Source: Brachionus manjavacas (taxonomy: Eukaryota > Rotifera > Eurotatoria > Ploima > Brachionidae). Taken from it: a stretch of 64,000 nucleotides of DNA. A model generated the notes under the pieces. The model had not been told where the DNA came from, did not search any database, and was given only the letters and a program-made list of their open reading frames with translations. Within the stretch, counting starts at the first letter, position 1. Each line of letters opens with the position of its first letter. Location: assembly GCA_019054805.1 (NCBI GenBank), contig JAHQIY010000011.1, positions 1,121,001 to 1,185,000 on the forward strand. The letters run 5' to 3'. Shown in pieces: positions 13,577-50,690 of this stretch. Both the position numbers and the translations under genes were made by a program.

Positions 13577-13748
13577 CTTGATAAGATATCAGAGTTAAAC
13601 TCTTTAAGATTTGTTTAAGATTTATTTGTCTTTTTCGTAAGACTTAAGTCAAAAAAAAATACGCAAAAAATGAGAAATGTTCAAGATAAATTTAAAAGAA
13701 CCTGAATTGTTAGCATTAATATTAATTTTAAGAAATAAATGAAAATCT

Positions 13749-14806
13749 GGGTAAGGATTAAAATACCATAAAAAGAGTGAATCAAAAAACAGAACACATA
13801 AAACTAAAAATGCTAATCAAAATTCTAAAAAGATTAACCAACACATAAATTTTTTGTATAACAATTGAAACAGATTAAAAACCATAAAAACTAAATTAAA
13901 TTTTTTTTATCTGTTAAAAACACATAATTGTTAAATCAATTCTAAAAAATTAAATTTTTTTTTTCTGTTAAAAACACATATAATTTAGAGCAAAATGAGA
14001 AAAAAAATTGAATGGATTTTTATGACCCAGCTTAAGTCCGTAGTCGAACTCGAATTTTTCTTAAAACAATTTCCATCTGCGCCTACAAAAAAGTCAAATA
14101 AGAACAATTGTACATTATGCTCAGATAATACAGACTTACATAAAATGAGAGTTTCGTATCAGTTTTGTGAATGTTCAGCTAAATTCCAAACTCGTTATTT
14201 AACATCAAAATGTCAAAATTCCGGCGCAATAACACTTAAGGGTATTAACTTGCATCAGCCTTTGGAATATATTCCGAATGAACCAGCTAAAAAGCAAAAT
14301 GGTATTTCACCGAAATTTAAAGAAATAATCGATGAGTTACTTTACCGCAATATATCTCGGCCGTATAAAATATACCAAGACATTTTATTAAACAATTACA
14401 ATGATCTTGCAAGACCAAGTTTGTTACAAATTCAAAACTATTAGTAGAATCAATAAATTTTCCAGGTATTGTATTGAAGTCTTTTATTAGCAAAACTAAA
14501 TCAAAAAAACGAAAAGCTGGGTATTGGTATGAAAAAGATTAAATTAAATATTTTGAAAAATTTTATTTTTATGTGTTTTTAACTTTTTATCTGAATGAAA
14601 TTTAGAATAACTTATGTGTCACTAACACTTATATCAAATAAAAGACTTAATTTTTTTTTTTATAAATTAATTTTATGTGTTTGTAACATTTTATTAGAAT
14701 CATTTTATGTGGTTGTAATCTTTTTTGATAAATAAATATAAGTTTATTTGTCGTTCACATTATTTATGTTTTTTTATCCTTTTTTATGGTATTTTAATCC
14801 TCACTC
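13749..14806. mobile_element. MULE-like DNA transposon with 9-bp target-site duplication
   Basis: The ends are GGGTAA and GAGTGA followed by the identical 19-mer GGATTAAAATACCATAAAA in inverted orientation. The 9-bp direct repeat TGAAAATCT flanks the element at 13740-13748 and 14807-14815. The opposite arm of the surrounding inverted repeat (about 15745-15765) shows the unoccupied site with a single TGAAAATCT, so insertion boundaries and duplication are confirmed within the window. Inside each end, the motif ACACATA is iterated: about 13794, 13842, 13919 and 13974 on the left, and inverted at about 14570, 14610, 14672 and 14707 on the right. A 9-bp duplication is typical of the Mutator superfamily. 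Only a short coding region remains. Confidence 0.85.
13995..14444 (+). CDS. N-terminal remnant of a MULE-type transposase
   Basis: 149-residue frame inside the 13749-14806 transposon, with an ATG start at 13995. It has a cysteine arrangement (CTLC, CEC and a later single Cys) that could bind zinc, and a C-terminal basic segment (SPKFKEIIDELLYRNISRPY). This layout resembles the N-terminal DNA-binding part of MULE proteins. The catalytic core and SWIM finger are absent. A second short frame ending KRKAGYWYEKD at about 14470-14540 may be the original C-terminus, which would imply an internal deletion. Function as a transposase is excluded. A role in DNA binding is possible but unproven. Confidence 0.5.
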   Translation: MRKKIEWIFMTQLKSVVELEFFLKQFPSAPTKKSNKNNCTLCSDNTDLHKMRVSYQFCECSAKFQTRYLTSKCQNSGAITLKGINLHQPLEYIPNEPAKKQNGISPKFKEIIDELLYRNISRPYKIYQDILLNNYNDLARPSLLQIQNY

Positions 14807-14879
14807 TGAAAATCTTAAATTTAGATTTTTTTTTTCAAAATATCAAATTTTTACATTTAAATTAATAATAATGATAGTA

Positions 14880-15258
14880 ATAAAAAGCTACAGCAGACTG
14901 ACTGCGGAGTAACTGCTATAGTAGCTGTTTGATTTTAAATGTGACATAAAAAGATTATTGGAAAATATTATTTTTTTTTCAAAAAGTTATCCAATTTGTT
15001 TTTAAATTCATTTTTAGATTTTGCATTTACGAACTCTATAGGTAATTCGTTCCACGCATTCATCACTCGGTTTGTTAGAAAGTTATCTCTAATCTTGATC
15101 CTTGTCATTTGCTTGATCAATCTACTTTGATGTCCTCGGATTCTAGTTAGTGCATGGCTTTTAATGTACGGATTCTTCCATTAAACTTTGCTGAAACAAT
15201 TCATTGTTCTGAAGGTTTCAATTAGGTCTCCTCGATCCCGTCTTGTCTTTAGTGTCTA
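14880..15258 (-). mobile_element. 3' fragment of a CR1/L2-type LINE
   Basis: The minus strand encodes the final part of a CR1/L2 ORF2: TRRDRGDLIETFR, then RGHQSRLIKQMTR, DNFLTNRVMNAWNELP and the end near 14985. One in-frame stop interrupts it near 15182. The 3' region (about 14885-14935) can form a hairpin between GCTACAGCAG and CTGCTATAGTAGC and is followed by an ATT-rich tail. This matches the 3' ends of such elements. It is nested inside the long inverted repeat. Confidence 0.7.
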
Positions 15259-15919
15259 AAATGTAATTAAATTAAAAAATACAATCATTTTTTTTCTCTT
15301 GAGTAAATTTATTTTTATTTTTTTTCTGAAATTTCATGAATTATACAATTGTTGCTTAAAATTTTTTTTTCTTTATAAAAATTTCGCTAAAACTCAAATT
15401 TTCAAAAAGTTTTCGGCTTTGGCTAGTTCTTCTACAATCAATCGGACATAAATTTCGAATTCAAATACAAATGAAAGAAGGCTTTTTTTAAATCGATAAT
15501 ATATTTTTCAGAAGGACTAATGGGGTTTTCTATTTTTAAATTAATTGAAAAATTTGAAAAATCTTGATTTATCTTGCATCTTTTGAAATAAATTGATTCC
15601 CTGTACCATTCTAAATAGTTCTTAGAGAGAAAGAAATTATATCTTAAAATTTCTTAATTCTAAGCTTATTTTATTAGATTTTTAAAAGAACCGAAATTTC
15701 TACTTTTCGTGAAATTGCACGATCCATTTTAAGAAAAAATTTAAGATTTTCATTTATTTCTTAAAATTAATATTAATGCTAACAATTCAGGTTCTTTTAA
15801 ATTTATCTTGAACATTTCTCATTTTTTTGGGTATTTTTTTTTGACTTAAGTCTTACGAAAAAGACAAATAAATCTTAAACAAATCTTAAAGAGTTTAACT
15901 CTGATATCTTATCAAGTTC

Positions 15920-16696
15920 TTCATATCGTTTACATTGTTATGATCCGAAGTTAAGAAAAATCTTAGATCTTTGCTGAGAATTTTTACCATGAAAATGTAA
16001 TAAAGCTTTGGAGTATAAAAAAACCCTGTTGCTTGTCCTGTTTGAGGTACTTATTTTCAAAAAAAAAAGAGGCTTAAAATCTTTCATAACAGGAATGCAT
16101 TGAATTTGATTTATTAATTTTTTTTTTTAATTCACTTGTATTTTTTGTCACTTATTTCAGTATGATTCTTTGGTTACAAAATTAGTACATATATTTTTAT
16201 TCGTATCTTTTTTTTAATAGTATTAGAAAGAGATTTAAAAAAATCTCAAGAATTTACCAAGATTTGACAATTTTTAGTATTTAATTCATTTAGAATATTG
16301 AAAAAAAGGTCCAATTTTCAAATTTTTGATATTTTCTAATATTGCCCCGTATCTTTTATCTCTTTTAACAAACAAAAAAAAAACATTTTAGATATTAAGA
16401 TATTTTTTTAAACCTTTAAATTTGACGAATCTTTAATAAATTAATAAATTTTATTAAATAAAAATCATTTGAAAACAAAGCAGGGATAGTTTTTTTTGAA
16501 AAAATTTACACATTTTTTGACCATCTTCCAAGTTTGTTTTCTAAGGTTTACTGTCGATTCACCAAATTTCACCAATTCATTCATCAATTTCAGCAATTTT
16601 TTGATGGTTAAAAGTCCAGCGAGAGTTTTTTTTTTAAATAAAAATTTCTTATTCTACTCAAAAATTGAGTCTATTTTCTAAAGAATTTAGATAAAT
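15920..16696. other. Intergenic, 3' flank of the LRR gene
   Basis: AT-rich, no gene recognised. A small open stretch at 16496-16681 on the plus strand has no recognisable features and is probably chance. Confidence 0.4.
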
Positions 16697-19156
16697 TTAT
16701 TCATAGTAAAAAACTAAAGTGAAGCAAGTAAATAGTAAATTGTTGTAAAAAAACAAAATTGGTGACTTGGACATTGAATTGTTTAGTGTTTGGTTTGGAA
16801 ATAAGGCAAGATTTAGTCTACAGGACAAATCGTTTGGATTCAATTGACCCAGTCCATTTTTGATAACAAAATTGTCAAAAAATTCTGATAGATTTGCAAA
16901 TGTACTCGGACCAGATTTGAAAGTATAGTTCAGCTTATTATTCCTATTCTTAAGGCAACCATTTTTAACCATTCCGCTTATTTTATCAACCAAATACTTT
17001 TTGGTCCTTAAAAGCAACGAATACTTATTTTTTTCTTTTTTTATCAAAACAGCTGTCTCCGAATTTTGATGATAGATTAGCACAGATCTGGCGAAAAATT
17101 CTGCCACCACAAAATTCGACTTGTCATCCACCAACTCATAGCTATAGTCACTCAAATGTCCAGCTTGTCCAAGAGTCGAACAATTCACAACCAAAAATTC
17201 ACTCTTCACACAAAACGCATTCTCGACCATATCGCACAAATCCGAGGCCAATATTTCCAAAATTTCAAATTGGCCATCTTCAAAATCTATGTTACAATTA
17301 AAATTCCCATTGAAATCATAATTGCAGTCGTCCACAAATTGATGATCTGTACAATTACCTTGATTGATGCCTTTTATCGAAACACTTTGATTCTTGGACA
17401 TTTCAGATAAATCACAGCCAACTGGTTCACTCAGTTGAAAAGTTACATTTCGATTTTGCAATTGTCTCAGAGTGCATTTGTCCAAAAATGTTATATTTTC
17501 CATATTGATTTCTATATTTTTAAAAGAAGTTGAGCAAAAAATTTTGCTATTTACATAAAGAAATTTGTTGAAAAGAAAATCTATTTTCAGCGGGAAAATG
17601 TTGGTAAAATTTCCGAAAAAATTCTTCACAAGTATTTTCATATATTTCATGTTATTCAGATTTAAATATGTTAGTTTTGATAAAAAGCTGAGGTCGGGAA
17701 TTTCCACAAAATTGTTATTATCCAAATAGACACTTTGAAGCCTGGTATTGAACTCAAAGCTATCAGACTCGATGTATACAATGCGATTGAGAGACAAGCG
17801 CAATACAGTCAAATTTAATAAATTTCTAAATGTGGCTTTTTTGATTAAAAATAAATTATTATTAGTCATTATTAAAATTTTTAGATTTTTTAAAAAAGGA
17901 AATTGAATGTGCTCGATCTGATTGATGGACAAATTTAGCTCGGTGGTATTTTCAAATTTTTGCAGATCGCCTTCGCTCAGATGTCCCACTGAGTTTTTGG
18001 CCAGCATTATTTTCTCATAATTGTCCAATTTGTTCAAATTCAATTCGGACACATTCACTAAATTTCCACTAAAGTCCAAAACCGAGCCACTCGCTGAATA
18101 AATCAGCTTGATCCTATTCTGTGAGGCAAACAGTGACTTGAGACGTGGCAGGTCTATGTCCAAAGTTTCGATCATATTAAAAGACAAGTGCAGGTATTTT
18201 ATCGTATTTGAATTATTTAGATTTTTTCGCGACGAAAAAGAAGTAAACTTATTACTATTTAGATTCAGGTATTCCAATGAAATGAAATTTAATTGAACAG
18301 ATTCATTCAGTAGGTTACCAACGAGATACACTTCATTAAGTTGGTCCAAATGGTCAAAACTTCCGGGCTCAATAAAATCTAAATTATTCCAACTCAATGA
18401 CAAAACCTCCAGTCCATTCAATAAATTAAATTTCTCTTTTGACAATTTTTTTAACTGATTATTGTCGAGAGTTAATTTTTTTAAATTGGCCTCAGATAAA
18501 TTTGCTTTGAACTCTATATTTGATACATTGCTACAATTGATATCAATATTTTCTATTTTCATACCTAACGTGATCTCAAAATGTTGAATAGCGCAATTTT
18601 GAAAATTTAATTTTGAAATTTTTTTTAAATTTAACAAATTGAGTCTGAGGGTTTTGAGCTTGACAAAACCAATTGTGAATTCCTTGATGCCTAGGCGGTC
18701 CATTTTTTCCAGGAAGCAAATTAGTGCAGATTCTTGAACATCAAGGGCTTGTTTAACAGCAATTGAGTTTATTCTGTTGGAAAATTTTGAAATCGTCTCA
18801 TCACTAATCGCTTCACTTGAGTTTGTTATTTTGCTTAACACAAGTCGTTCTATGTAGTTTACACCGGACAGTTTTTCAAAAATATTACTGTTCCCAATTT
18901 CTTCATTTAAAGTTAAGGATGATATGTTCAGGTTGGTAAAGCTACCATGCGGCAATGTGTTCAAATTGTTCAAAATAATTTTTATGTTGCTTAGATTGGA
19001 AGTGTTTATTTGGGAAGTGAATGGTGTACAAGAAAACGAGCATGATGAGCCCTGGTTGTTTAGACTTATACAGATCTCGGCAAAATCTCGCGAATTCAAA
19101 GCATCTAAGCTTAATAGAATAACAATGAAGTGAAAAATAAAATTTTTTGAAGTCAT
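16697..19156 (-). CDS. Secreted/surface leucine-rich-repeat protein, probably GPI-anchored
   Basis: Intronless 819-residue protein starting at the ATG at 19156. Residues 1-22 form a signal peptide (FIFHFIVILLSLDALNS). A Cys-rich N-terminal cap follows (CISLNNQGSSCSFSC). From about residue 165 to 520 there are repeated LRR units, for example LKKLTLDNNQLKKLS, LEVLSLSWNNLDFIE, LKILIMTNNNLFLI and LQSVYLDNNNFVEIP. After the LRRs there is a Cys-containing region of unrecognised fold with many Asn-linked glycosylation sequons. The extreme C-terminus is hydrophobic with no cytoplasmic tail (ILFFYNNLLFTCFTLVFYYE), preceded by small residues (NNSMSKS). This suggests a GPI-attachment signal, or less likely a terminal TM helix. 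Expected role: extracellular recognition or adhesion. The ligand is unknown. Confidence 0.8.
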   Translation of the reverse strand: MTSKNFIFHFIVILLSLDALNSRDFAEICISLNNQGSSCSFSCTPFTSQINTSNLSNIKIILNNLNTLPHGSFTNLNISSLTLNEEIGNSNIFEKLSGVNYIERLVLSKITNSSEAISDETISKFSNRINSIAVKQALDVQESALICFLEKMDRLGIKEFTIGFVKLKTLRLNLLNLKKISKLNFQNCAIQHFEITLGMKIENIDINCSNVSNIEFKANLSEANLKKLTLDNNQLKKLSKEKFNLLNGLEVLSLSWNNLDFIEPGSFDHLDQLNEVYLVGNLLNESVQLNFISLEYLNLNSNKFTSFSSRKNLNNSNTIKYLHLSFNMIETLDIDLPRLKSLFASQNRIKLIYSASGSVLDFSGNLVNVSELNLNKLDNYEKIMLAKNSVGHLSEGDLQKFENTTELNLSINQIEHIQFPFLKNLKILIMTNNNLFLIKKATFRNLLNLTVLRLSLNRIVYIESDSFEFNTRLQSVYLDNNNFVEIPDLSFLSKLTYLNLNNMKYMKILVKNFFGNFTNIFPLKIDFLFNKFLYVNSKIFCSTSFKNIEINMENITFLDKCTLRQLQNRNVTFQLSEPVGCDLSEMSKNQSVSIKGINQGNCTDHQFVDDCNYDFNGNFNCNIDFEDGQFEILEILASDLCDMVENAFCVKSEFLVVNCSTLGQAGHLSDYSYELVDDKSNFVVAEFFARSVLIYHQNSETAVLIKKEKNKYSLLLRTKKYLVDKISGMVKNGCLKNRNNKLNYTFKSGPSTFANLSEFFDNFVIKNGLGQLNPNDLSCRLNLALFPNQTLNNSMSKSPILFFYNNLLFTCFTLVFYYE

Positions 19157-19818
19157 TTTTTAAATTTTTTAAATTAAAAAAATTTCAGTATATTGAATCT
19201 GTTTTTATTTACTAGATAAGATTTGATTTACAACATTAAAAATTATTGAAATCAATCTTGACGCATGAATATTGATGTCTTAAAGAAGTAATAAATATGA
19301 CTTAATGAAAGGTTTATTTAGTTTTTTTTATTAAAAATCGATTTCGTCTAAACAAAATGAAATTTGATAAAAATTTTGGGGACATTTATTGTAATAAGCT
19401 ATTAGAAAATGAATGAAATTTATAGGATTATTTTTTAATAATAAAAAAAACGGATAAAAAAGGAAGGAAAAATTAATAAGCGATCAAATTTTTGGCTTAC
19501 AAATTATAATTATAATTTCTTTAGCTGAAATCTTAAAATATTGAACTAAAGAAACAAAAAACGAATGAAATAATTTAGTTAGTCCGGTTAAGCTTGCTAT
19601 TATTTCAGATGAAAAAGGATAACATTTGATAAAAATTTCTTTGATATAGAATTTTTACAATAAATAATTGATATTCTTTTCAGGATTAAATTTGAAAAAT
19701 TTTTTTAATGAATTTATTTAGGCTTGAAATAAATTTTCGTAAGATTTATTTAATTCTTAAGAGTAAAGGGAAATGTAAAGCTAAAATCTGGTATAGTCAA
19801 GCTTAAATCTGTTAAAGT
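19157..19818. other. AT-rich intergenic, 5' flank of the LRR gene
   Basis: No gene recognised. The last ~30 bp (19792-19818) carry an extra AGTCAAGC unit. The adjacent transposon end may therefore extend slightly further left than 19819. Confidence 0.4.
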
Positions 19819-21106
19819 CAAGCAAATTTTTTTTTATCAGTCTCACCGAGAAAGTCAAGCCAAAAATATCTAAACTGTGAAATCAAGCTTAAATTATTTT
19901 TTTCTGTTAAAGTCAAGCCAAAGAAAGTGGAAACCAAGCAAATGAGATTAAAGTCAAGCTTTTTTTAAAAAAATTTATTTTTGTACATATTACATATTTT
20001 AACGGATAAAATTGTTTTTAATTATTTAAAAGACATTTAATTAACAACAAAAACTATTTTTATAAAACGACCTAATTATCTTTTGTTAAACAAAATTTTG
20101 CCAAACTATGTCTCCCTACTTTTTTATTTGATTTATTTACAAATTCGTCATCTTTTAGTTTTAAACCTGGATAATTTTTTTTTAAACAAATTAAAGCTGC
20201 TATTAAATGAGGACAAGTCCCAATGTTTAAATACTTGACACAACTGCAGGTATTGCATTCTAAACAATTGCATTCTGGATCACTGATCTCAATGTAATCA
20301 ATGTTATTGCTTTTGTGACGATACTTAAAAACTGCTAGTCCATTTGTATTGCTCACCTTCTCAAACTTTTTGCTTTTCAAAACCACTTTGGAATAGCTTA
20401 CGTCTTTTTTTTGAAGTTTTGGAATTTCTTTTGGTTGTTTGCAGCTTTTAGATTCAAATTTTACCACATTCACAAAGATTTCAATCACCGGCAACATATT
20501 AAATTTAACTATATTAGTAAAATAATCTTTAATGACTCTATTATAACTTTCTATCGGTGAGTTGCTCATTTCCATGCCAGGTCTTGTCAAAAACAATTGC
20601 CAATTTTTAAATTCACTACATATCCACTGTTTTGAAAAATACTCTGCAAAATCGCTGAACCCTTTTTTTTTCCATTTGGACAGTATTTTGGTCTTTGTAG
20701 ACTGAAAATCTTGTAAGCTCTTTGTATCTCTCATTTTGTAAACATCTTTGTAAATCTCTTTGCGACTCTCTTCTTGGATTTTCGTTGTTTGTTTTTTAAC
20801 ATTTTGCATTAAATGGAAAAAACACATTATTGACAAACAAAAACAACAAAAATTTTATAAGCTAAAATTTTAGAAAATCATTCAAAAAAACATGATTCAC
20901 TCGGTTGATAAATGATTTCTTTATTTTAAAGAAAAATTCTTTTGATTGAAAAAAAATTTAAAAAGCTTGACTTTAATCTCATTTGCTTGCTTTCTACTTT
21001 TTTTGGCTTGACTTTATAGAAAAAAATAATTTAAGCTTGATTTTCCAAGTTTAGATATTTTTGGCTTGACTTTCTCGGTGAGACTGATAAAAAAAAAATT
21101 TGCTTG
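19819..21106. mobile_element. MULE-like element with ~145-bp TIRs built of AGTCAAGC iterations
   Basis: The left end 19819-19961 and right end 20961-21106 are inverted copies with high identity over about 145 bp (left reads CAAGCAAATTTTTTTTTATC). Each TIR contains about five iterations of AAAGTCAAGC or close variants, inverted at the right end. The element encloses the 3' half of a transposase gene on the minus strand. Internal loss of the catalytic half makes it non-autonomous. A target duplication could not be fixed, because the right end seems to lack one motif unit present on the left. Confidence 0.75.
20072..20836 (-). CDS. C-terminal half of a MULE transposase with SWIM zinc finger
   Basis: Open frame of about 250 residues. 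The first ATG in frame is at 20827. It begins at the conserved region that normally follows the catalytic Asp residues (MCFFHLMQNVKKQ), continues through SNSPIESYNRVIK, and ends with a SWIM-type finger (CSCVKYLNIGTCPHLIAALI). That order is typical of Mutator-like transposases. The N-terminal DNA-binding and DDE catalytic region is missing, so it cannot transpose DNA by itself. The frame is fully open, which suggests recent activity or retention. It lies between the two TIRs of 19819-21106. Confidence 0.7.
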   Translation of the reverse strand: MSIMCFFHLMQNVKKQTTKIQEESRKEIYKDVYKMRDTKSLQDFQSTKTKILSKWKKKGFSDFAEYFSKQWICSEFKNWQLFLTRPGMEMSNSPIESYNRVIKDYFTNIVKFNMLPVIEIFVNVVKFESKSCKQPKEIPKLQKKDVSYSKVVLKSKKFEKVSNTNGLAVFKYRHKSNNIDYIEISDPECNCLECNTCSCVKYLNIGTCPHLIAALICLKKNYPGLKLKDDEFVNKSNKKVGRHSLAKFCLTKDN

Positions 21107-21774
21107 GTATCATCACGTGAAAAACTTGAACTTTGTCCCATTAACTAAATAAAAATTTTGTCCATTATTTGTTAAAATGGTTTGATTTTTTGTTCCAATC
21201 GTACACATGTAAGAGATCGCTATTTTTGAGACAAAAACCTTACTAAATTATTGCGACCCTCTTTTAAGGATTCTGATAAAATCTTAAATTCTGTCATGAG
21301 TTGATTCCAAAGCGTTAGTTGTATATTGTTAATCTGACCTGATTCGGAGCCACTTTCACATATGCCTAGCATTTATAATCCGCATTTTTCCATAACCAAC
21401 TCGGACGTTGACACTTACTAGACCACCATAATAACTAAATGAAACGGCAAAAATATCATTTGTCCGTGATTGATGGATTGCCGATGCTATTTTTTTGACT
21501 CAGTTTAATTAAAAATAAAATTTATTTTTTAAATAATCAAGATAAAAGTCTTTGACTCGGACTTTTGAAAAAATAATTTTTTAAAGTCCGGACCTGGACT
21601 TGTGACTTTTAACTCAACTCTGGTCAGAATTAGAAATTTCCAAAATTTAGTCAAGAAATTTTCAACTTTTTTTCTGCTAAGATTGGATTCATCAATGCAA
21701 GCAATTTTTTTAATCTAACTTAATTTTTTTGAAACTAAGATGTTTTCAAAAAACTTGTTGAACATCCATTTTTA
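21107..21774. other. Intergenic with a MITE end fragment
   Basis: No gene recognised. 21545-21620 is a partial copy of the right end of the MITE at 6029-6650 (GACTTGTGACTTTTAACTCA and AAGTCCGGAC in the same order). Confidence 0.5.
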
Positions 21775-22632
21775 TAGCTAATCTAAATGATTTAAACAAT
21801 ATAATAAATTTAGCAATAAACCTAATTGAATTAAGAAAAAAAATTAGCAAACAGATTAAGCTAAAATTAGCATGCTTATTTTAGCAAGTTTTTTTAGCAA
21901 AAAAGATTTTCTACTTTTTTTGGTTTAAGTGTGCCTTATTCCAAGTGCCCGCAACATCGAAAAGTTTTAAAATTGGCCCAAGTTTTAGCTTTTGTCCCCC
22001 CAGTTGATGTTAAATACTTGTTTAAAAAAATAAAATCTGAACTTGACTCTAATTTAGAATTTTTCAAAAATGCATTAAAATTATCCAATTATATGGAAGA
22101 GACTTGGATTGGGTAAGACACCACTAAGAAAGCTGGTAGAGGAAGAGGAGTGAAAGTTATAACAACTTATGTTGAATCTAGATTTAAAATTGAGTTGTGG
22201 AATGTTAGCAGCGGAATTAATGATTGCCTACCGCGCACTAACAACTCTGTAGAGGCTTGGCATAATGCCTTTAGTAACATGCTCAGTAAGCACCCGTCCA
22301 TTTATCCGCTGGTGGACAAATTTCGAGAAGAACAGAAAAAACAGAGGATTTATTAGTAAAATTAGAAACCGGTGTCCAATACAAACGGAAACCAGCTTAT
22401 ATTTTATTAGACGATAGAATTAAAGAAATACAAAAAAAATTATTCTTTAGCTAATTTTGATAAGTACTATGATAGTTTGTCGCTAATTTTGGATTTTTAG
22501 GTTTTTCTTTTTTTTAAAATTTGCTAAATTGACTATTTCTCTTTTTGTTTATTGCTAATTTTAATAAAATTATTGCTATATTTGTGTTGCTAAATTTTTT
22601 TTATTACTTGCTAATTTAATCAATTTAAATTA
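21775..22632. mobile_element. MULE-like relic with ends built of TTAGCAA iterations
   Basis: The left flank (21775-21905) has five TTAGCA units. The right flank (22440-22632) has about seven inverted TTGCTAA-type units. Between them lies a decayed transposase fragment. The repeat units are spaced irregularly by AT-rich sequence, unlike simple tandem repeats. The exact termini and target duplication could not be determined. The arrangement parallels the elements at 13749, 19819 and 47915 but with its own motif. Confidence 0.6.
21931..22450 (+). pseudogene. Decayed MULE transposase fragment
   Basis: Two in-frame pieces are separated by a stop near 22112. The first is LAFVPPVDVKYLFKKIKSEL up to METWIG-like sequence. 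The second is VESRFKIELWNVSSG with LPRTNNSVEAWHNAFS. After LVDKFREEQKK a frameshift leads into the remaining C-terminal part (VQYKRKPAYILLDDRIKEI) ending near 22450. The motif RTNNSVEAWH recurs in the relic at 48311 (KTNNASETWH), so the two transposases are homologous. It is inactive. Confidence 0.65.
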
Positions 22633-22740
22633 ATCAATTCTAAAATGAACCGTCCCCGTAGTCTGTCCATAGTCTGTCCAACTGGAATTTGAAGCTGTTT
22701 AAGGACCTAGCATTTATTATTTAGCATTTAGTTACATTCT

Positions 22741-23672
22741 TTATTTATAACAAAAAGGGGAACCTAGAAAATAAGATAAATAAATACACCAACGAACTAG
22801 AACAATGGCTTATTAAATGGAAAATGAAGATATCAGTTGAAAAGTCATGTTCAGTAGTCTTTTCTAGGTACAAAAAAGAGGATGATAATCTAAACTTAAA
22901 AATCTATGGAAACAGAATAGTGAGCCAAAAAGAAATCAAGTTTCTTGGTATAAATTTGATTCTAAATTAAACTTTAATATATTAGTAGACCAAATTAAAG
23001 AACGCTGCAACAAAAGGCTAAATATTATTAAGATATTGTCAAATAAAAAATGGCGCCTTAATCAAAACACACTAGGAAATTTATATAAATCTTTAGTCGG
23101 ATCGATTTTAGACTATTCTTTTCCTTGCTTGAATTCATTTTCAGAAAATAATATCAAAAAACTACAAGCAATTCAGAATACAGCAGTAAGATCTATCCTT
23201 AAGTTAAAATATGATACTCCCTCCAACATCGTACAACATGAAGCTTTTAATAAACTAAAATTACTAACAGTCTCGAATCGTCTTTTTGAGTTGAGTGAGA
23301 AATATGTTGGGACAGGACTGAGTCATTCTATTCCATTGGTTGAAAGACTGGTGAAAGAATACAAAGAAGGTTTCGAATCAAGATATATTGAATACCCAAC
23401 TCCATTGTGTAATTGCTGCCTTACTATTTCTTCTTTTTTTCCTGAAACTTGAACTATTTAAACATGTGCCACATGTAACAATCTTTTCCAATTTATGTCT
23501 TTTAAACTTTCTTTTTTTTAGCATATTTACTCTATTTTGATTCTTTTTTTTTTATCTAATTTTATTAACTTTAATTTTATTTTTATTCAATTTTTTTAAT
23601 TTTATTTTTAACTTATTCTGAAGGAGCTCTAGCTCGGTACAGAAAACAAATAAATAAAAATAAAAATAAAAT
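22741..23672 (+). mobile_element. 5'-truncated Jockey/CR1-like LINE relic
   Basis: The plus strand encodes the RT palm/thumb end: LEQWLIKWKMKISVEKSCSV, a frameshift at about 22965 just after KEIKFLGI, then NKKWRLNQNTLGNLYKSLVG, SILDYSFPCL and a final stop at about 23452. The 3' region ends in AAATAAATAAAAATAAAAA at about 23650-23672. RT catalytic residues, endonuclease and ORF1 are missing. It abuts the oppositely oriented LINE starting at about 23685. Confidence 0.7.
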
Positions 23673-23684
23673 TATTTCACTAGG

Positions 23685-29236: not shown

Positions 29237-29373
29237 ACAAAAATCAATAAAAAATAAACTTAATTTAATTGATTGTTATTGTTAACAGCATAAATAAAAA
29301 GAAATTATTTTAGTTACTTAATTTTAAATAAATTTTTTTATAAGAAATCTTTTATTTTGCTTTAATAAAAAAA

Positions 29374-40850: not shown

Positions 40851-43180
40851 GGCGTTGTACAGGATAATATCTTTATTTATTTATATTTTAATTTACAGCT
40901 GTCTTTTTAAAAGGATTAGGTCAATTTCGATAAAAATTCATTTAATGAAAAATATTAAAATTAACTTTAATATATTTTATAATTTAAATTCAGCGCAAAG
41001 AAACCACGCTCAGATAATTATTCACTATTTTCTGTTTAGTCCTTGACGAAATTTCTTACTCTAATACAAAAATATTGACTGTCTGATGTTGAATTAAAAA
41101 AATTTTTTCTTTTATTGAAGATAGAAATCAAGAAAGAAACATAAAAATTTTAATATTTTTTTTTTAATTTTTCAATAAAAATTTTTACTGATAGAAAGGA
41201 TTTTTCCAGAGTCAGATTTTTTAATTCGTTTATCGCATTTGGCAATGCATTAATGGGGTCCTCAAGATATTAAAGTAACCATACTCAAAAATTTATGTAT
41301 TTTTTAACTTTACTAATACTATTAACAATTTTTTTAAATCAAAAATAGTATTAAACAATTATGTCATTTCTCTTTGAAACTTTTAGGCGCCTTATTTCTT
41401 AAAATAATTATCATATGAATAAAATAGTTATATAAACTGAATCACCTCTCCTAACTTTAAATCGACTTATTTTTTTTAGACAATTAATAAAAAATTTATC
41501 TCTAAATAAAAGCTAAATAAGAAAAAAATATTTTTTCCGACAAAATTGCACCCAACTAATCACCACATCATCAGCAGAGTTTGACAGCTGATGCAACTTT
41601 GAATGTTGCCCCACTGACAGAACCAATTTTAGACATTAAGAAAAAAAATTATTTAACTATTTTTAAACTTTGTTCTGTTCTTTTGTGCTGAACTTGACAA
41701 AACCAAAAATTTTAAATAAAAATATGATTAGTAAAATACTTAAGTTAAAAATTTTATTAAAATTGTAAAAAACCCTTTTTAAACAGCCAATTTAGTAGTA
41801 GTATTTATAACTATTTTACCATTTTTTGGTCAAAATAAAATTTTAGTGTAATTCATAAAATCTCATTTAAATAAAACTACTCTGAAAACACAATGTCTCT
41901 CAATTGTCTTTAGTAGGTACCGCTCTTTTAAAGATTGAGTTTCAAACATTTTTCTAAATCTCTTGGTCCACACAATGTTTTTTAGCATTAAAGATCTAAA
42001 TTTTGTTTAAACTTAATTCTCCTTTTTTAATTTTTTAAGTTTTATTTAAAAAATTTAAATTTTATAATTTTAACATCAAGTTAACCTTTTTCTTTTTTTT
42101 GGAAAAGTGCTTTTCTTGCTGAAAGGAGAGATAACGATCTCCAAGCAACTGGGCTATTTGTAAATAAATAAATAAATCTTAATTTTGATGTTTGATACCA
42201 AATTTTTCCTAATTTTATCTTAATAATTTTTTTTATGTAAGCAAAAATTTAGTATTATTTTTCTCTATTATTTGAAAAAAATACCACGGTCTACCCGGTA
42301 GTGTTATCAATGGATAACCAAGGCTTTTTGGCAGGTTAGGTTGTAAAACTGATAATTAAGATGGTTTTCATCAAAAATTTTGAATAAAAATATTCCTTTT
42401 GATTACAGAATTTCTAGTCTCATTATTTTTGTAACACAAAATTCATTAAAATGTTTAATTAAATTTAAATTCATTTGATTTTAATATACTTTAAAATAAA
42501 ATAAATTTAAATTTTTTTTTTGGTTATATAATTTTGATGTCGAATTGCATGAAATGGCAAATTGATGTTTGTGATTAAATTTTCATGGTCATACTCAAAA
42601 ATTATCTTTAAAAAAAGGTTTTTAGGGTACTCTTGTTTTTAAATTTTACTACAAAGCAAATATTTAAAGTAAACATTCAATATTCAGCTGAATTTTTTTA
42701 TATCTGCAAATATCTTAAAAAATCTTATGTTATGCACAATACAAGGGTATGGTTTTAACATGGTTTGCTACACATAAAAATGTATCTCTGGATAAAAAAA
42801 ATTTTTTTGGTAATTTTTGATCAATTAAAACTTTATTTTGGCCATGAAATTTATTTAATAAAAAAAATCTTTTTTTTAATTTTGTTAATCTTTTTTAATT
42901 TTGATAAATTCATTGAAATTGATAGCATAAATATTATAAAATCAATTTAACAAAAAATTTTATAACAAAAATTATAGCATCATTAAAAATTAAATTAAAC
43001 TAAAGTAATTTCTGATAACATTGCTGGTGATAACCAATATGATAGCATAACCGGTCAAAGTGCCTTGGATGACAAGAATTGTTATCCATCGATAGCACCA
43101 ACGTATAGACTTCAAAACTATTCTTCAAAGAAAAAATATTTTTTAATTATTTTTTTAATTTTAAAGCTTTTTTTTTAAAG
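40851..43180. other. AT-rich region with a LINE tail
   Basis: No gene recognised. About 42110-42178 looks like the 3' end of a plus-strand LINE: a short hairpin-forming piece (GGAGAGATAACGATCTCC) followed by AAATAAATAAATAAAT. The stretch 43030-43125 is locally GC-richer and open in one frame but has no donor or recognised product. Confidence 0.45.
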
Positions 43181-45354
43181 AAAAATGACGGAATTGAATC
43201 GGTACCATCTAAAGACTTGGTCGAATCACCGGCTCTAGTTAAACAAAATCGTTTTCAAAAAATGTAACTAAAACTAAAAAAATTAAAAAAAAAAATCATT
43301 TAATTTTTTTTCTAAATGCATTTAGAATGAGTGTTGTGTTCTCTTCTTACGGCTTGTTTATAATTCTCGTCTTGATTATTATTTTAGGCATCCTTTTGGG
43401 TCTAATACCGGTATTTCTAAACAACACTAAACAAACAAATATTTTAGTCAGTGACAATAGCAATTCTACAATAATCGACAAAATTTTGAACTCCACCGAC
43501 TCAATTACTCAAACATTAAGCAAACTGGAGCCAACTGTTCCTATTACAACCACTTTGCAGACAATACCATTTGAGCCGACATCCCAGCCTCAACCGGCCA
43601 CCAGTCTTCTTGCCACAACTGAACACGAAGACACCTCGACACAAACAACACTGGTCCCAAGCACTCTGAGCACAGAAGACGCCACAACAGAAGAAACAAT
43701 CATTACCACCGAAAAGCTCTGCGAAATAGACCCTGATCCCGAGTCCATAATTCCCATCGACTACAACTCCAACGATTGTCCCACTCAGTCAATCTACAGC
43801 CCAAAATTTATAAGCCTAACAAACTCCTACAACTTCGAGTATCCCATCAACCAAATTATAGTCTGTCCTGGCTCTAAGCTCGAGCTCAAATGCCCATCCA
43901 GCCAACTTCTTCATGTTTTCTCGGCCTATTACGGCATCCAGCCCGACACCAATACATTCAGCTGCAGCAAAAAGTCCAGTCTGCACGAAATCTGCTATTT
44001 TGATTTGACTTTTAGTAATTTGACCACTATTTGTGAAAAAAAAACTTCATGTGAAATCACAGTAAATGTGGGCAGTTTTGGCGATCCGTGCATAAACTCA
44101 AAAAACAAACAACTATTTGTTCAATACCAGTGTTTGGACACCATCAACTATGACTTGGTCAGCACTTGTGATCTGAACAAAAACAAGAGCTCAATATGTC
44201 CGGACAAAAATGGTGCCCAGCACGAAATCATGATATGTGATTCGAAGCCTTTTTCCATCGAGTGTCCAAATGGTCACTTGATCAGCATTTTGTGCGCCTT
44301 CTACGGACTTGATCCGAATCTGAGGTGCCCAGGCACATTTTACTACGGTGCTCCCAGCGCTTGCTACTCAAAACAGTCCTACGATCTGGTCATCGAAAAC
44401 TGTCACGGAAAACAAAACTGCACTTTTAGGGACGAGACCGGCACTAAGTACGACATTGGCTTCACTGAAGTATGTCCTGGTTTCCAGAACATACTGCTAA
44501 TTCAATGGGAATGTGTCTCAAATGAACAAACAACACCACAACCACACACTACATTGACTACACTGCCTACATGCTCAACTAGGCCTTTCGTTAACGCGAG
44601 CTGTGACTCGACCCACTCGCCATATGTGCCCCAGCCACTCACCAACTCAACCCTAACCTACTTTTCCTACCCCATCTACCAGCAAATTGTTTGCCAAGGC
44701 TCTACCCTGGTCCTAGTCTGTCCATCAGACTTGGTCATTCACATTTACTCGGCATACTTTGGCATACAGGAACCCACTAGGTCCGCTTTTTGCATGTCCA
44801 GTCCCTTCATGGAAAATCCGTACATGTTCTACATCCCACAAAGCTTTGACATTATAAAGAATACATGCGAATACAAGACTAAATGTGTACTCAGGGCCTA
44901 TGCAGTTACAATGGGAGGCATAGAGCTAAATTCAGCGTATAGCAAACAGTTAGTGGTGCAGTACCAGTGTGTCAATCCGACTGTGCTAGCTGAGCAGATA
45001 AACCAGTGTCCAAGCAAAAATCAAATACCAGAAATTTGTGCCAAAGTGGAAGAAAATGCAGAAGTCTACGAACAAACAATATGTGATGGCAGTGCGATGA
45101 GTTTAAGCTGTGGATCAAAGAGAATTAGTGTGGTATGTGCGTTTTATGGTGTGCATCCGTCGCTGACCAGCTGTGGGGTGCCCGATCTTCCTGCCAAGCC
45201 AGTGTGCTATTTTAACAGTTCGTACACAACCGTGAAAAATGAGTGCGATGGACGCACTAGTTGTTCCTACAATGCCATCGGATCTAATGTATTTTTTGAC
45301 GATCCGTGTACTGGATTTAAGAAAGCTTTGTTTATTCAATGGAAGTGTACTTGA
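43181..45354 (+). CDS. Type II membrane protein with four SUEL/Gal-lectin domains (lectin 2)
   Basis: The main exon 43326-45354 encodes a TM helix (YGLFIILVLIIILGILLGLI), a Ser/Thr/Pro-rich stalk, and four lectin domains. Domain landmarks are IIVCPGSKLELKCP/AYYGIQPD, IECPNGHLISILCAFYGLDP, IVCQGSTLVLVCP/AYFGIQEP and SVVCAFYGVHPS. Each ends with a DPC/QYQC or IQWKC-type motif. A preceding exon, 43181-43263 (starting KNDGIESVPSKDLVES), joins in frame through a 62-bp GT/AG intron. It has no start codon, so upstream exons are needed. The pair at 35367-35538 is the best candidate. A start at the Met at 43327 is the fallback. The coding sequence is richer in C-ending codons than its paralogs. Positions 44479-44784 are identical to lectin 3. 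Confidence 0.82.
44479..44784 (+). repeat. 306-bp tract identical to lectin 3 (49809-50114)
   Basis: I compared the two stretches in register (offset 5330) and found no difference from GGTTTCCAGAACATACTG to the GTCC before position 44785. Immediately outside, sequences differ at many positions. The tract covers the end of domain 2, the Thr-rich linker and the first part of domain 3. Confidence 0.9.
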
Positions 45355-45730
45355 GCACAATTTTTTTTTTACCTAAAGATTATTATTGACAACGATTTTT
45401 TGTGTAATTTTTTTTTTTTAAATAAATTATTTAAAGCCGTATATTTGTTTTCGTGTTGTGCGACTGGTTTTAATGGCCGTAAAGGTAACCTAATATTCTA
45501 TTGATAGTCTCCTGGTTGCTAAAGCAATTCTCATAGTTGATAAATATTTGTGCTGAAATTGAGAGGTTTTGGATTTTTTTTGAATTCTGCTAATTTGTTA
45601 CAAAATAGGCGGAATGAATTAGGCCGAAAAAAAACCGATGGAATCAATTTTTTATTTTTTTTTTTCTCAAATTAACCAGTCTAGTTATTTATTTTTTGGC
45701 TCTATTTGTATTTGAATTTTTTTTTAGAAA
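45355..45730. other. Intergenic between lectins 2 and 3
   Basis: Holds the 3' end of lectin 2 (AATAAA at about 45420) and the 5' flank of lectin 3. 45450-45560 is a GC-richer patch of unknown nature. Confidence 0.4.
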
Positions 45731-48700
45731 ATGAATTTTATCAATGAAAAGGTATTTTGGATTTTTTCCTATTTCCTTTTAGCTTAATGTGATTCATTAT
45801 TTAGATTTTGAGAAGAAAATTTCGAACCAAAGTGTTTAGGTTCTACCCACCGGGCTTATGGATTTCTGTAAGTTGGAACTCGTAGAATTAATGAGCCTAT
45901 TTAAAAATAATCTATGTGAAGTCTTTCACGAACAATTTAATTTATTAAAGAATGCTTGAAGTGTTTGATAGACATGTTCTGAAAATTTTTCTAATAAATT
46001 CTGCTAAAGAATCGATTTAGATTAAATATTAATTGTCTTTAAATATTAATATTAAGCTAATGAATTTTATTTTTTAGAACGATGGCTCGAATAAACGAGA
46101 ACAATCAGATGACGGGATCACAAATAGCGACTCGCAAAGAATGTAAATTTAGAAAGTTTTAATTAATATATTTTTTTAATTATTTTGTTTAGGTGGACTT
46201 TTAAAAAATTTACTAAATTAATATTCGGTTTTTGTCTGGCTGCTTTGATTACCGGACTTGCAATTTTGATGATTTTATTAATAATCAGATCAAGTAATTT
46301 TTTTATCTATAAAAATTGTATACTTCAGTTTTTTTAAATTCAAAAGGCAAAATAATTAATTACTTTGTAAATTTTTGTACAACTTCACTCAAAATTATAA
46401 TAAATATTCAAGATAAGATTTTTATAATTTAAAATTTTTTTTTTAATGATTTGCAAATTTGAACAATTTAAAAATATTTGTCCATTTTTAATTCTGCAAT
46501 TTGTTTATTGTATCAAAAAAAACTATATTTGGATATTTTTTTAAAAAGACCATTTCAAAGATCATGATCAAAACATTTCTAAAAATTTGTAAATACAGAA
46601 ACATGATTGACTTTAAAAAGGTGTCAAAGGTTGAATTGTATCTAAAGATTTTTTAAAAATAAAAAAAATATTATGTTTGACTCATAGATTTCAAAATTCA
46701 AAATAATTTAATAAAATAATTTTCTATCTATAAAACCGAGAATTTTACTTTATTAAAAAATTTACTAAATTTAATTGATGAGGTTTTTTTAAGAAATTTA
46801 GATTATGTAAGCCCGGTTAGCTCAGTTGGTTAGAGCGTCGTGCTAATAACGCGAAGGTCGTGAGTTCGATCCTCCCACTGGGCAAATTTTTTTTTTTAAA
46901 AAATAGTTAGTTTTATAAACATGAATTGTTTTTTTAAATTGCATTTTTGCAAGTGGCATCTGATCTTAGGTTTTACTCAAATCAAAAACTTAATTTTTCG
47001 AAAGCTTACCATTAATTAAAATCTAAATTTACCGTATGAAATCATTATTTAAAAAACTTTTTTTATAAATAAGAAAAATTTTAAGTTTTTTTTTGTTTGT
47101 TTTAAATTTTTAATATTTTTTTCTCATTTTGATCAAATATAATGAATAAAATTTGAATAAAATATGAATATTTAAAATTAAATCTGAAATTAGGATTTTT
47201 TAAAGTTTAAAAGGAAAATTTAAAGATCATTGAGATTGAAAAAAAGTGTTCATTTTTACATCCTTTTTTTTAAATTTTATAATTATTTTTCAAAATTGAT
47301 CACAAAAAAATGCTTTACAATAGGAATCCCAAATGATTAATTTGATTTAAGTTAAGAAAAAATAATGTAAATTTTTTTTTATAAATTGATTCAAAATTAA
47401 ATGCTTAATAATTCATAATTTTCAATTTTTATTTAATTATAGTTTTTTTATTTTAAAGATTAAATTGAGAATGTTGAACTTCAAAATTTAACTTCAGTGG
47501 GATTGAGAAAAAATTTATTTAACGATTTTAATGCTAAAATATGCACCGTGAAAAAGCTAAAATAAAAGACAAAGGAGTCATTAAAGTAAATCAAAAATTA
47601 TAAATAAAAATACAGACATGACTATCAAAATATGCTTCTGCTCATTTATTTTTTTAGCGCAGTCTGAAAATAATTAGAAAAATACAATTAATAATTATTG
47701 ACTATTTGAATTTAATTTTGAATAGCTCGTGATAATTTAATATTATTTGAATAGTTCATTAGTTGGCATTGTATGTGACTAAAAACAAAATTGGCTTATT
47801 GCTAAAAGGAAGAGCTAAAATTATTCTTTTGTTTTCGAATCGAACCGAAATATATTGATAAATTATAAATTTAAGCTTTAATTTTATAATTAAAATCTTT
47901 CAAAGGCTGTGTATTAAAATAGCATTGATCAAAATAGCAAAATCATAATAGCGATATCATAATAGCAAAAATTACATGTTGTTTTAAAGTTCAAAATAAA
48001 CATAATAATTTTTGAATACTCAAAATAACACGTTCACAATAGCTTATTCAAAATATCAGGTTTGAAGCTAAATTAAATTGTTTATTTATTTATTTAAAAA
48101 ATAATTTAGGCGAGGCCTTGGCCGGATGGAATGAAGACTTAGTCCTTCCTTGCAGCCACATGATAGATTTTTGATACCACATAATGTAAAAAAAAATAAT
48201 ACAATTTTTTGAAAAAAGTTAAATTAGTTGTAGTTTAGTTTTTAAATTTTCCTTTATATGTTAAATGAAAACAAATTTACAATTTTCATGAAAAAAATTA
48301 AAATTTAAATGTGCATGACAGGTTAATGCAAGATTTACCTAAAACTAACAATGCTTCTGAGACCTGGCATAATTCATTCTCAGGTCTTTTGGACGTCCAT
48401 CCATTGATATATGAATTAATCGATACTTTGATAAAGGAACAAAATAAAATGGAAACAAATTGGTTGAAGTTTAACAGTGGTTTAATTGTCAAAAATTCAG
48501 CTTCATTAAATGATGATTCGTTTGTCAAAGTAATGAAAAAGTATGATCCTTCAAAAAAATTAGGAACATTACACAATTTAGCTTTATTACTTATATAATT
48601 TTTGTTCTAATTGATAAATTAGTTGATGTATGCTATTTTGAATTTAATAAAAGTGTCGATATTCTAATAATGTTATTTTGAATTCGCTAATTTAAACATT

Positions 48701-50690
48701 GTTATTTTAGTGACCAAAAAAACTTTAAAAAAAAATATTTTTTAAATTATCATATTGATTAAAAAAAAGTTAATTATTTAACAAATATTTTCTCTTAGTC
48801 AATAAACACATGTTGGTTTAGCTGTGTTTTTGTTTTAAAAAAATTTGCCCAGTGGGAGGATCGAACTCACGACCTTCGCGTTATTAGCACGACGCTCTAA
48901 CCAACTGAGCTAACCGGGCCTTCATTTTTTTAATTAATTTCAATTTTTTAGCAAAATATTCCCAAGCATCATGGACATCGAAGCAAAATTTAAACCAAGT
49001 CAAATCGGATCTGAACATATCATCATATACTTCAAATTCACTGATTGAGACGCCGTGTAAAATCGAGAAAAAGCCGGAAATAGAACTAAATCTGGACATA
49101 TGCTTAAACACAAGCGTATATGAACCAGCTCCGATAGATTCACAATTCATCTACTCTCTAGGAAGTCCAATATTGCAGGCAGTCGTGTGCTACGGTTCAA
49201 AACTTCACCTAAAATGTCCTTCTTTGAACCATAAGCTACACATACACTCAGCCTATTTTGGAATTCAAAAAAATACCAAAAATTACTGTTGGTCCAACCC
49301 CAATGGTCTAGTATGCTACAGAAATTTGACATATCACTACTTAAGAAATTTATGCCAAAACAAATTTTCATGTGATCTGATCGTCACTGACACCTACTTT
49401 GGCAATCCGTGTCCCATTCAAAATTTATACCATAATCAACTGCTCATTCAATATCAATGCTTTGACGACCAAAGTATAAATTTGATAAAAAAATGTGACA
49501 TAAATACATCAATTTCAGATATTTGTCCTGTGTTAAACAATTCCAATCATTACCAGCAGCAGTGGTGTGATCCTTCCAAAGCTATCGTTAAATGCCCCAA
49601 GGGCACTTTTATTAAAATAATTTGTGCCTATTACGGAATCGATAATAAGCACAAATGCGCTCATTCCGAATATAAAGGATGTCCGACTAAATGCTATGCG
49701 GAAAACACAATTTCTAGAATACAAAACATGTGCAATCAAAGATCAATTTGTTTCCTAGAGGGACAAAACTCATTCGAATTTGGCTCTGGTCTGACAAACG
49801 CATGCCAAGGTTTCCAGAACATACTGCTAATTCAATGGGAATGTGTCTCAAATGAACAAACAACACCACAACCACACACTACATTGACTACACTGCCTAC
49901 ATGCTCAACTAGGCCTTTCGTTAACGCGAGCTGTGACTCGACCCACTCGCCATATGTGCCCCAGCCACTCACCAACTCAACCCTAACCTACTTTTCCTAC
50001 CCCATCTACCAGCAAATTGTTTGCCAAGGCTCTACCCTGGTCCTAGTCTGTCCATCAGACTTGGTCATTCACATTTACTCGGCATACTTTGGCATACAGG
50101 AACCCACTAGGTCCACTTTTTGCACCAATATTGAATTTAAAGAAATGCCAGCCATGATGTATTCAATTGAGAGTTTTAAAACTGTTAGTTCAATTTGTGA
50201 ATCAAAAAATGTTTGTCAACTCAAAGCCTTGGTGAATAGCTTAGGTGGTGCAGATTTAAATCGAGAGTTTAGCAAGCAATTAGTTGTACAGTATCAATGT
50301 GTTGATCCTTATGTATTGGAGCATCAAATGAGCAAATGTGATCTTGATCCGGAAGTTGACGAAATTTGTCCGAAAATTGAAAGCCATGGACAAGTGGCTT
50401 ATGAGGATGTGTGGTGTGATGAGGATCAGTTGAACATAACTTGTGAATTGGGTAGAAAAATAAAAATTTTATGCGCCTTTTATGGAATTCATCCATCTAT
50501 TTCCAAATGTGACATAGCTAATTTACCATTTAGACCAGTGTGCTATTTTAATAGTTCGTTTAGTAAATTAAAGGATTTGTGTGATTCGAAAGAAATTTGC
50601 TCAGTGGATGTAATTAATTCCGCTTTGTTTAATCATGATCCATGCAATGGACTCAGAAAAGCCATTTTTGTTCAATGGAAATGCTATTGA
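45731..50690 (+). CDS. Type II membrane protein with four SUEL/Gal-lectin domains (lectin 3), four exons
   Basis: Exons 45731-45751 (MNFINEK), 46078-46142, 46193-46293 and 48952-50690 join in frame through GT/AG introns to 641 residues. Exon 2 begins with NDGSNKREQS, like the NDG exon of lectin 2. Exon 3 encodes the TM helix (LIFGFCLAALITGLAILMIL). Exon 4 encodes a short stalk and four lectin domains: AVVCYGSKLHLKCP/AYFGIQKN, AIVKCPKGTFIKIICAYYGI, IVCQGSTLVLVCP/AYFGIQEP and KIKILCAFYGIHPS. The last domain ends VQWKCY-stop. The 2.66-kb intron 3 contains two tRNA-Ile genes, a MULE relic and a LINE tail. Unlike lectins 1 and 2 it lacks a long Thr stalk. Part of domains 2-3 was overwritten by sequence identical to lectin 2. 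A poly(A) signal candidate is near 50735. Confidence 0.85.
46811..46884 (+). tRNA. tRNA-Ile (anticodon AAU)
   Basis: Cloverleaf read by eye: acceptor GCCCGGT pairs with ACTGGGC (one G-U), D arm GCTC/GAGC, anticodon stem TCGTG/CGCGA with loop CTAATAA giving anticodon AAT. The T arm is GTGAG/CTCCC around TTCGATC with one T-C mismatch, and the discriminator is A. A T run right after the gene is a Pol III terminator. The A box (TAGCTCAGTTGG) and B box (GTTCGATCC) are present. It lies in the sense orientation in intron 3 of lectin 3. Confidence 0.92.
48100..48160 (-). mobile_element. 3' tail fragment of a LINE
   Basis: The minus strand reads GGCTGCAAGGAAGGACTAAG, continues through a GC-richer piece and ends in a TAAATAAATAAATAAA-type tail (plus 48080-48096). 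Such tails end the other LINE copies here. Only the last tens of bases are present. Confidence 0.5.
48311..48598 (+). pseudogene. MULE transposase fragment
   Basis: 95-residue open stretch beginning within LMQDLPKTNNASETWHNSFS and continuing with HPLIYELIDTLIKEQNKMET. It is homologous to the segment at 22200-22340 (LPRTNNSVEAWHNAFS, KHPSIYPLVDKF). It represents the region close to the transposase C-terminus. The catalytic part is missing, so it is inactive. Confidence 0.65.
48846..48919 (-). tRNA. tRNA-Ile (anticodon AAU), inverted second copy
   Basis: Identical over all 74 nt to the tRNA at 46811-46884, including the T-stem mismatch, but on the opposite strand. It is followed by AAATTTTTTT as terminator. 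It lies only 32 bp upstream of exon 4 of lectin 3, so its 5' end is next to that exon's acceptor region. Confidence 0.92.
49809..50114 (+). repeat. 306-bp tract identical to lectin 2 (44479-44784)
   Basis: Partner of the tract described at 44479. The surrounding lectin 3 sequence uses A/T-ending codons, whereas the tract has the C-richer codon use of lectin 2. Lectin 2 was therefore the likely donor. Confidence 0.9.

Follow-up and report, generated by a model that had tools for sequence, protein, structure and literature searches.

Spacing of iterated end motifs and transposase clades in Mutator-like elements of a rotifer genome

Four relics of Mutator-like elements (MULEs), here called E1 to E4, lie in a 64,000-nucleotide window of the rotifer Brachionus manjavacas (C11:1121001-1185000 of a 114 Mb assembly in 61 contigs; G+C content 19-38% in 2-kb steps) and carry rows of a short motif at their ends. 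Comparison with other loci of the same assembly (L-numbers below) reveals that the spacing of motif copies, or pitch, follows the transposase family tree among the families compared, even where the motif letters have changed. We rate this agreement of pitch and clade highest among our findings. The architecture of the ends is known, and the regularity in spacing is new and testable. E1 to E4 themselves are inactive, internally deleted MULEs of an AT-rich, animal-like genome.

Motif spacing and motif letters across transposase clades

Pitch was counted between consecutive exact motif cores, several of the core motifs and degenerate patterns having been picked after looking. In a first clade, which holds E1 and E2 and is represented by ten families, none of 66 spacings measures 13-16 bp and 25 measure 19-22 bp; pitches are about 21, 30 and 38 bp. 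On the other side, five families (E4, E3, L129, L135 and L134) have 27 of 48 spacings at 13-16 bp and 3 at 19-22 bp, and the subterminal tandem repeats of the E3 and E4 families mostly keep a pitch of 13-16 bp. The FLYWCH domain (PF04500) is recognised on this side in L067, L066, L129, L135, L136 and L137, with E4 being placed there by its C-terminal piece alone. Two orphan families, L005 and L035, show 16 of 25 spacings at 13-16 bp and one at 19-22 bp.

Motif copies are also anchored to the element tip, from which the outermost copy typically lies some 11-17 bp inward. Among 27 tip-C clusters, positions of the word TAGC peak at 15, 30, 44, 58, 72 and 87-89 bp from the tip, the copy at 15 bp being fixed by the search pattern. 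Spacings of 13-16 or 28-30 bp account for 53% of 74 TAGC spacings, compared to a null mean of 11% and a null maximum of 22%, and sense copies outnumber antisense copies by 100 to 18. First-clade families with differing letters likewise have common positions near 11-17, 32-38, 53-59 and 93-96 bp. Across the genome, TAGC triples at a pitch of 13-15 bp occupy 185 places versus 38 in the reversed control. The pitch specificity of TAGC taken alone is nevertheless mixed, as there are triples at 19-21 bp too, many of which carry another 21-bp unit resembling TAGCGGAATTTTTATTAAAA. We read the two kinds of triples as different families, one nearby transposase (L139) having been checked. L139 was found through its TAGC array, whose steps measure 21 and 19 bp, and its transposase groups with L131 and L132 in the 21-bp clade (support 100/99), apart from the other TAGC families; it is a single case.

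TAGC arrays with a pitch of 19-21 bp lie outside the tip-C families at L139:1681-1800 and at places such as C15:1228279 and C13:2026349. In some arrays of this pitch, the TAGCGGAATTTTTATTAAAA-like unit recalls TACCTCAAATTTATTAAAATT, the unit of L132, though its letters differ. A further TAGC array was seen by eye at L002:3320-3430.

Motif letters fall into the classes AAGTCA (E2, L006, L012), CATAA (E1, L041, L047, L056, with CGCATAAA in L046), ACC[CT]C (L131, L132), TAGC (E3, E4) and AGAAA (L129, L135-L137). These classes track the transposase clades. A tree of 16 transposases, of which 13 belong to the five classes, requires four changes of motif class, which is the minimum and was reached by none of 200 label shuffles; the tree contains near copies (L066/L067, L135/L136, L041/L028), and the AGAAA group has a support of only 63/62. 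A broader association set comprised 60 loci recovered by transposase similarity, of which 54 were non-training loci. The array expected from the best-matching transposase was present at 30 of the 54, a discordant array at one (L054, with near-tied scores) and no clear array at 23; many of these loci overlap or are copies in tandem, L051 coincides with L002, and several were examined beforehand.

The first-pass annotation of the window had proposed one motif per element and a co-evolution of each transposase with its motif. The former is too strong, as E3 and E4 share the TAGC class on related transposases. One motif per element was also rejected on the 27 dissimilar shared-tip clusters, most of which carry TAGC variants; the exceptions are L084 with no TAGC and L078, L090 and L105 with one each. 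Of the latter, two parts are supported: the design recurs in other families of this genome, and motif class follows clade; binding by the transposase is a presumed step. Two pairings of motif and transposase were discarded. The TTAGAGAA motif cannot be paired with the transposase inside L005, since an AAGTCA-family fragment lies within that element, and the TATCGA element of L035 cannot be paired with an E1-type remnant that lies beside the element rather than enclosed by it. At L005:1275-3180, the TTAGAGAA-class element with 9-bp duplications contains the AAGTCA-class MULE fragment including its transposase, a case of nesting or capture.

Iterated ends and superfamily membership

The shared design attributed to the four elements, with directional iterated motifs that are inverted at the far end around a piece of MULE transposase, is confirmed. 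Exact inward-pointing copies at the left and right ends number 4 and 3 for ACACATA in E1, 5 and 3 for AGTCAAGC in E2, 4 and 4 for TTAGCAA in E3, and 2 and 1 for AAAATAGCA in E4, with no exact copy on the wrong strand at any of these ends. The E4 9-mer occurs just three times, and the iterated core is TCA[AT]AATAGC. The best 6-, 7- and 8-mer counts were compared with 300 dinucleotide-preserving shuffles per element, and none of the shuffles reached the observed values in any of the four. Among 1500 random window places for each element, the observed 6-mer count was reached at 2 places for E1, none for E2, 3 for E3 and 6 for E4, all of them falling on E3, E4 or a GGCC-rich islet near 62 kb. This islet (61915-62095) is a short G+C-rich stretch of repeated GGCC-containing words within AT-rich surroundings and, in this random sampling, the sole non-MULE rival to the E4 array. 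The motif-blind Tandem Repeats Finder reports a period of 21 at the E1 right and E2 left ends and of 14 at the E4 left end; two further rows, of period 54 in E1 and of period 14 in E3, fail to match the motif copies individually.

The arrays are a well-formed pattern of a known kind in most families tested. Element ends were detected by duplication and inverted similarity in genomic loci or, in the E3 and E4 families, through tips held in common; the ends used for L129, L131, L134, L135 and L138 are the likeliest candidates and fall short of proof, and those of L132 are not fixed by duplication. With one element per family (n=18), 6-mer counts in the first 200 bp of both ends were compared with 1000 shuffles, and 16 of the 18 families had counts reached by at most 15 shuffles. 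Random window pairs (n=400) gave a mean excess of -0.01. Since one end of an element may be a copy of its other end, single ends (n=36) were tested too. The tip GGCTSTGTATTAWWWTAG, allowing at most one mismatch, occurs at 63 places genome-wide versus 1 in the reversed control, and the tip GGGTGAGGTWNAA at 33 versus 5. Of the latter, 21 were examined (L108-L128), and at least five (L109, L112, L114, L119, L128) have no arrays and resemble coding or other sequence. For the 39 tip-C loci, the single-sequence 6-mer test is often non-significant and the positional test is the stronger one.

Membership in the MULE superfamily is indicated by the MULE domain (PF10551) in L002 of the E2 family and in L066 and L067 of the E3 family. 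The window copies of E1 and E2 yield no MULE domain match, and the transposase pieces of E3 and E4 are placed in MULEs by homology. Target-site duplications, which are 8-11 bp long in MULEs, measure 9 bp in E1, L002, L067, L061 and L063, and 8 bp in L064 and L065, and that of L062 is imperfect; the duplications for E2, E3 and E4 are read from these relatives, the window copies being truncated. The N-terminal domain on the E1/E2 side has conserved cysteines and one histidine. It gave no FLYWCH match at E<=10, and a profile comparison returned a probability of 0.2%. E1 and E2 are accordingly kept apart from the Phantom/Muta1-type (FLYWCH) MULEs, with which the E3 family is classed. The E2 motif contains a TTGAC core, that of the W-box, which prompted a WRKY-like reading of the first-clade domain. 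This reading was dropped, as seven proteins of the first-clade type gave no Pfam WRKY match (E<=10); there was also no PDB sequence match, and fold searches with weak models gave nothing at E<=0.001.

The same N-terminal cysteine domain is found in two open frames of 426 and 387 amino acids at L042:799-2076 (C28:360722) and L045:1504-2664 (C14:1263612). There the domain is followed by a charged C-terminal part of another kind, and both frames share the ending NKKRKLDF. The two frames have the appearance of host genes that arose from the DNA-binding domain of a MULE.

Proposed transposase loading, competing explanations and known systems

The observed termini, duplications, arrays, orientation, pitch and agreement with the tree suggest a mechanism for the role of the motif rows. 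An element end comprises a short tip common to many families, followed by a row of a single inward-pointing motif. This motif would be bound by the transposase that the element itself encodes, through the N-terminal DNA-binding domain of that protein. Several such molecules might load side by side at each end and bring both ends together. The pitch would then be the footprint of this assembly: about 14-15 bp for E3 and E4 on the FLYWCH side, and for E1 and E2 in the other clade about 21 bp, with some longer steps close to 30 and 38 bp. A change of letters between families on a roughly fixed grid could keep families from mobilising each other. We consider multi-site loading of the transposase on its own motif rows, with the pitch as its footprint, to be likely. 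The further proposal that spacing is a deep and slow trait set by the geometry of transposase assembly, with letters replaced wholesale on a fixed tip-anchored grid, is evenly balanced in our view. If true, about ten sites per element would change together as families split. A single genome would thus document how a DNA-binding domain has evolved in concert with its many sites, with two rulers of about 14.4 and 21 bp.

Several observations weigh against this interpretation. The E1/E2 N-terminal domain matches no Pfam DNA-binding family (E<=10) or PDB sequence, and its structural models (pLDDT 59 and 69) found no fold at E<=0.001. Given these results and the lack of a FLYWCH-profile match, a DNA-binding role of this domain is assumed. 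L134 was counted on the FLYWCH side and has no FLYWCH match, the L129 core is of low complexity, and the first-clade patterns were a post hoc choice. TAGC triples at 19-21 bp pitch are themselves in excess, with 87 places versus 30 in the reversed control. The two-end test failed for L138 (47/1000) and L096 (311/1000), single ends were weaker with 23 of 36 at or below 50/1000, and in a few significant single ends the top 6-mer differs from the family motif. Motif copies of the 21-bp clade are separated by spacers that resemble each other more (46-66% identity) than those on the FLYWCH side (42-51%), and the L132 and L006/L115 arrays hold near-perfect 21-bp tandem copies, from which we conclude that slippage contributes. 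In favor of the mechanism, poor conservation of the FLYWCH-side spacers speaks against simple recent duplication there. Agreement between motif class and clade is partly expected from common descent; we argue for constraint because the grid was retained while the letters changed.

The arrays might instead bind another protein, either a host transcription or chromatin factor or an anti-silencing factor resembling VANC; their role would then lie in expression or silencing and not in the recognition of ends. Precedents are the family-specific tandem motifs of Arabidopsis VANDAL elements, which are read by VANC (PMC5735166), and a placozoan Mutator motif in the terminal inverted repeats (TIRs) that coincides with chromatin loop anchors (PMC12221973). 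However, the L002 locus has a single open reading frame (ORF) of at least 100 amino acids, the transposase, and so a second protein of this size that might read the motif is not encoded in L002. The mirror orientation of arrays at both ends, the tip-anchored grid and the pitch that follows the transposase tree also favor end recognition, and we regard a role for another protein as unlikely. A shade less probable are neutral minisatellites that arose by slippage within the ends and were inherited by descent with no binding role. The near-perfect 21-bp units of L132 and L006/L115 would fit such an origin, and Foldback-type ends with internal repeats are known (PMC3169594). Yet on the FLYWCH side cores and pitch have been maintained despite divergence of the spacers (the cores being selected by pattern), the grid is common to 27 dissimilar clusters, and antisense copies are few. 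Chance in AT-rich DNA has a negligible probability: several motifs do consist largely of A and T, and single ends exceed 50/1000 in 13 of 36 tests, but the shuffles of all four elements, the random window pairs without excess and the two-end results refute it for the set as a whole.

Transposase loading on motif rows can be compared with several known systems. The first-pass annotation was not aware of a description of the one-motif-per-element pattern for MULEs in such a genome; subterminal iterated repeats have been published for animal MULEs (PMC5225508, PMC3169594). In the passages on the Muta families of Aedes aegypti (PMC5225508), 10 of 12 families with long TIRs have subterminal tandem repeats of 9-15 bp, and in Muta1, which has a FLYWCH transposase, a 12-bp repeat occurs 9 times with spacers of 3-4 bp (a pitch of 15-16 bp). 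With these repeats, target-site duplications of 8-9 bp and long TIRs, Muta1-Muta14 closely resemble the E3/E4 type; the E1/E2 type differs in having no recognisable FLYWCH. These same passages contain no 21-bp class, no rule of pitch by clade and no tip-anchored positions under changing letters. The nematode element Tm1 (root-knot, Mutator/Foldback) has tandem TIR units of 13-15 bp, a 9-bp target-site duplication, a FLYWCH-MULE transposase and unlike terminal motifs at its two ends, all of which recall the elements described here; it is one family with one repeat sequence, whereas several families with different motifs are compared here (PMC3169594).

VANDAL elements are likewise MULE families with family-specific short tandem motifs that diverge along with a co-evolving reader, which is the separate anti-silencing protein VANC (PMC5735166). 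The L002 locus differs in lacking a second ORF of at least 100 amino acids beside the transposase. VANDAL TIRs are absent or short and degenerate, and MULEs with short or no TIRs are known, according to a paper whose main text does not contain the word "subterminal" (PMC6446971). The E2 family differs in its long TIRs (193/195 identical in L002); those of E1 are short (36/44). The mechanism proposed here is that of Galileo, where the transposase N-terminal domain binds several sites in long TIRs, but Galileo belongs to the P superfamily and uses a THAP domain; the same paper states that transposase binding to Foldback and Phantom repeats was untested (PMC3688188). Neither the pitch-by-clade rule nor the 21-bp class nor rotifer MULE arrays were found in the portions of open-licence PMC papers that were searched.

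To our knowledge, how a transposase shifts its DNA specificity when a whole array of many sites must follow is an open question. With a dozen or more MULE families, different motifs and two spacing rules, this genome makes the question testable. The pitch rule could also aid the annotation of non-autonomous MULEs from pitch and tip alone. It predicts the mobilising clade of the orphans L005 and L035, which we assign to the FLYWCH side because of their pitch of about 15 bp.

The four window elements and their families

E1 (13749-14806) is a complete, internally deleted CATAA-class MULE identified by target-site duplication and TIR search and by similarity to L032. Perfect 9-bp copies of TGAAAATCT at 13740-13748 and 14807-14815 render its limits exact, as had been annotated, and its tips are GGGTAAGG at one end and GAGTGAGG at the other. 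Inward-pointing ACACATA copies occupy the left end (13749-13990, plus strand) and inverted copies the right end (14560-14806, minus strand), where the 21-bp period lies at 14763-14801. E1 equals L032, a 2137-bp copy of the family, minus about 1.1 kb deleted at 14443, with 654/695 and 351/363 identical positions in the parts flanking the deletion (BLAST). It retains mostly an N-terminal transposase piece, an ORF with the cysteine/histidine domain (13989-14444, plus strand); the MULE domain is gone, and no Pfam family matched at E<=1. Similarity between the two ends of E1 is confined to the outer 44 bp plus patches, and in E1 and L032 taken together the ends match across the outermost 20-44 bp plus patches, although in both elements each end carries the motif; the second motif row of E1, which also carries ACACATA, is therefore not merely a copied long repeat. 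An empty site is preserved about 1 kb away (15726-15919, minus strand), where the inverted flank sequence runs continuously through a single copy of the target site. Near-identical inverted arms flank E1 at 13574-13748 and 15726-15919, the right arm being this empty site.

E2 (19761-21106) is an AAGTCA-class MULE with an internal deletion, recognised by similarity to L002 (1056/1082 and 262/270 identical for its two parts, BLAST). A single tip, GAGTAAAGG, is retained at 19761 rather than at 19819 as in the earlier annotation, and the other end is cut at 21106. The left terminal repeat (19761-19981, plus strand) holds AGTCAAGC copies with a 21-bp period at 19778-19823. The right repeat is inverted and truncated (20960-21106, minus strand; 144/148 identical to the matching L002 repeat), and the two arms align over 141 nt at 86% identity. 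Between them, an ORF on the minus strand (20072-20854) encodes the C-terminal part of the transposase, a piece also retained in E3 and E4, and is 95% identical to residues 311-532 of the 540-aa frame of L002. This 2420-bp relative has 9-bp duplications, and the terminal 200 bp at each of its ends contain six motif cores. A tandem array of a decayed MULE unit lies at G000:C24:625877-651635, where degraded E2-type transposase copies follow one another at intervals of about 3.5 kb.

E3 (21790-22657) is an internally deleted TAGC-class MULE of FLYWCH type with similarity to L067. Its right terminus, ending in CCGTCCCC, is retained at 22657 and not at 22632 as annotated before; on the left, homology is secure from 21790, and about 69 bp including the tip are lost. 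Identity to L067 amounts to 124/132 (21790-21920) and 305/325 (22348-22657; BLAST). The left TTAGCAA array (21806-21905, plus strand) is followed by a transposase remnant of the C-terminal part in a broken frame (22100-22450, plus strand) and by the inverted right array with its tip (22430-22657, minus strand). L067 is a 1583-bp copy with 9-bp duplications, and the family has open frames with FLYWCH and MULE domains.

E4 (47905-48709) is a TAGC-class MULE with similarity to L061 (775/830 identical, BLAST) and the relatives L061-L065. The iterated array annotated earlier is present, with adjusted limits: the left tip GGCTGTGTATTA is retained at 47905, and homology ends at 48709, about 88 bp before the right tip of L061, the right tip of E4 being lost. 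The left array of TCA[AT]AATAGC (47905-48065, plus strand) has its 14-bp period at 47928-47970, and the inverted right array (48625-48709, minus strand) is decayed and truncated. The transposase remnant (48320-48589, plus strand) is 40% identical over 77 residues to the C-terminal part of the E3 family. The E4 family has 71 genome matches; five copies were read, and family ends are about 73% alike over 118-121 bp.

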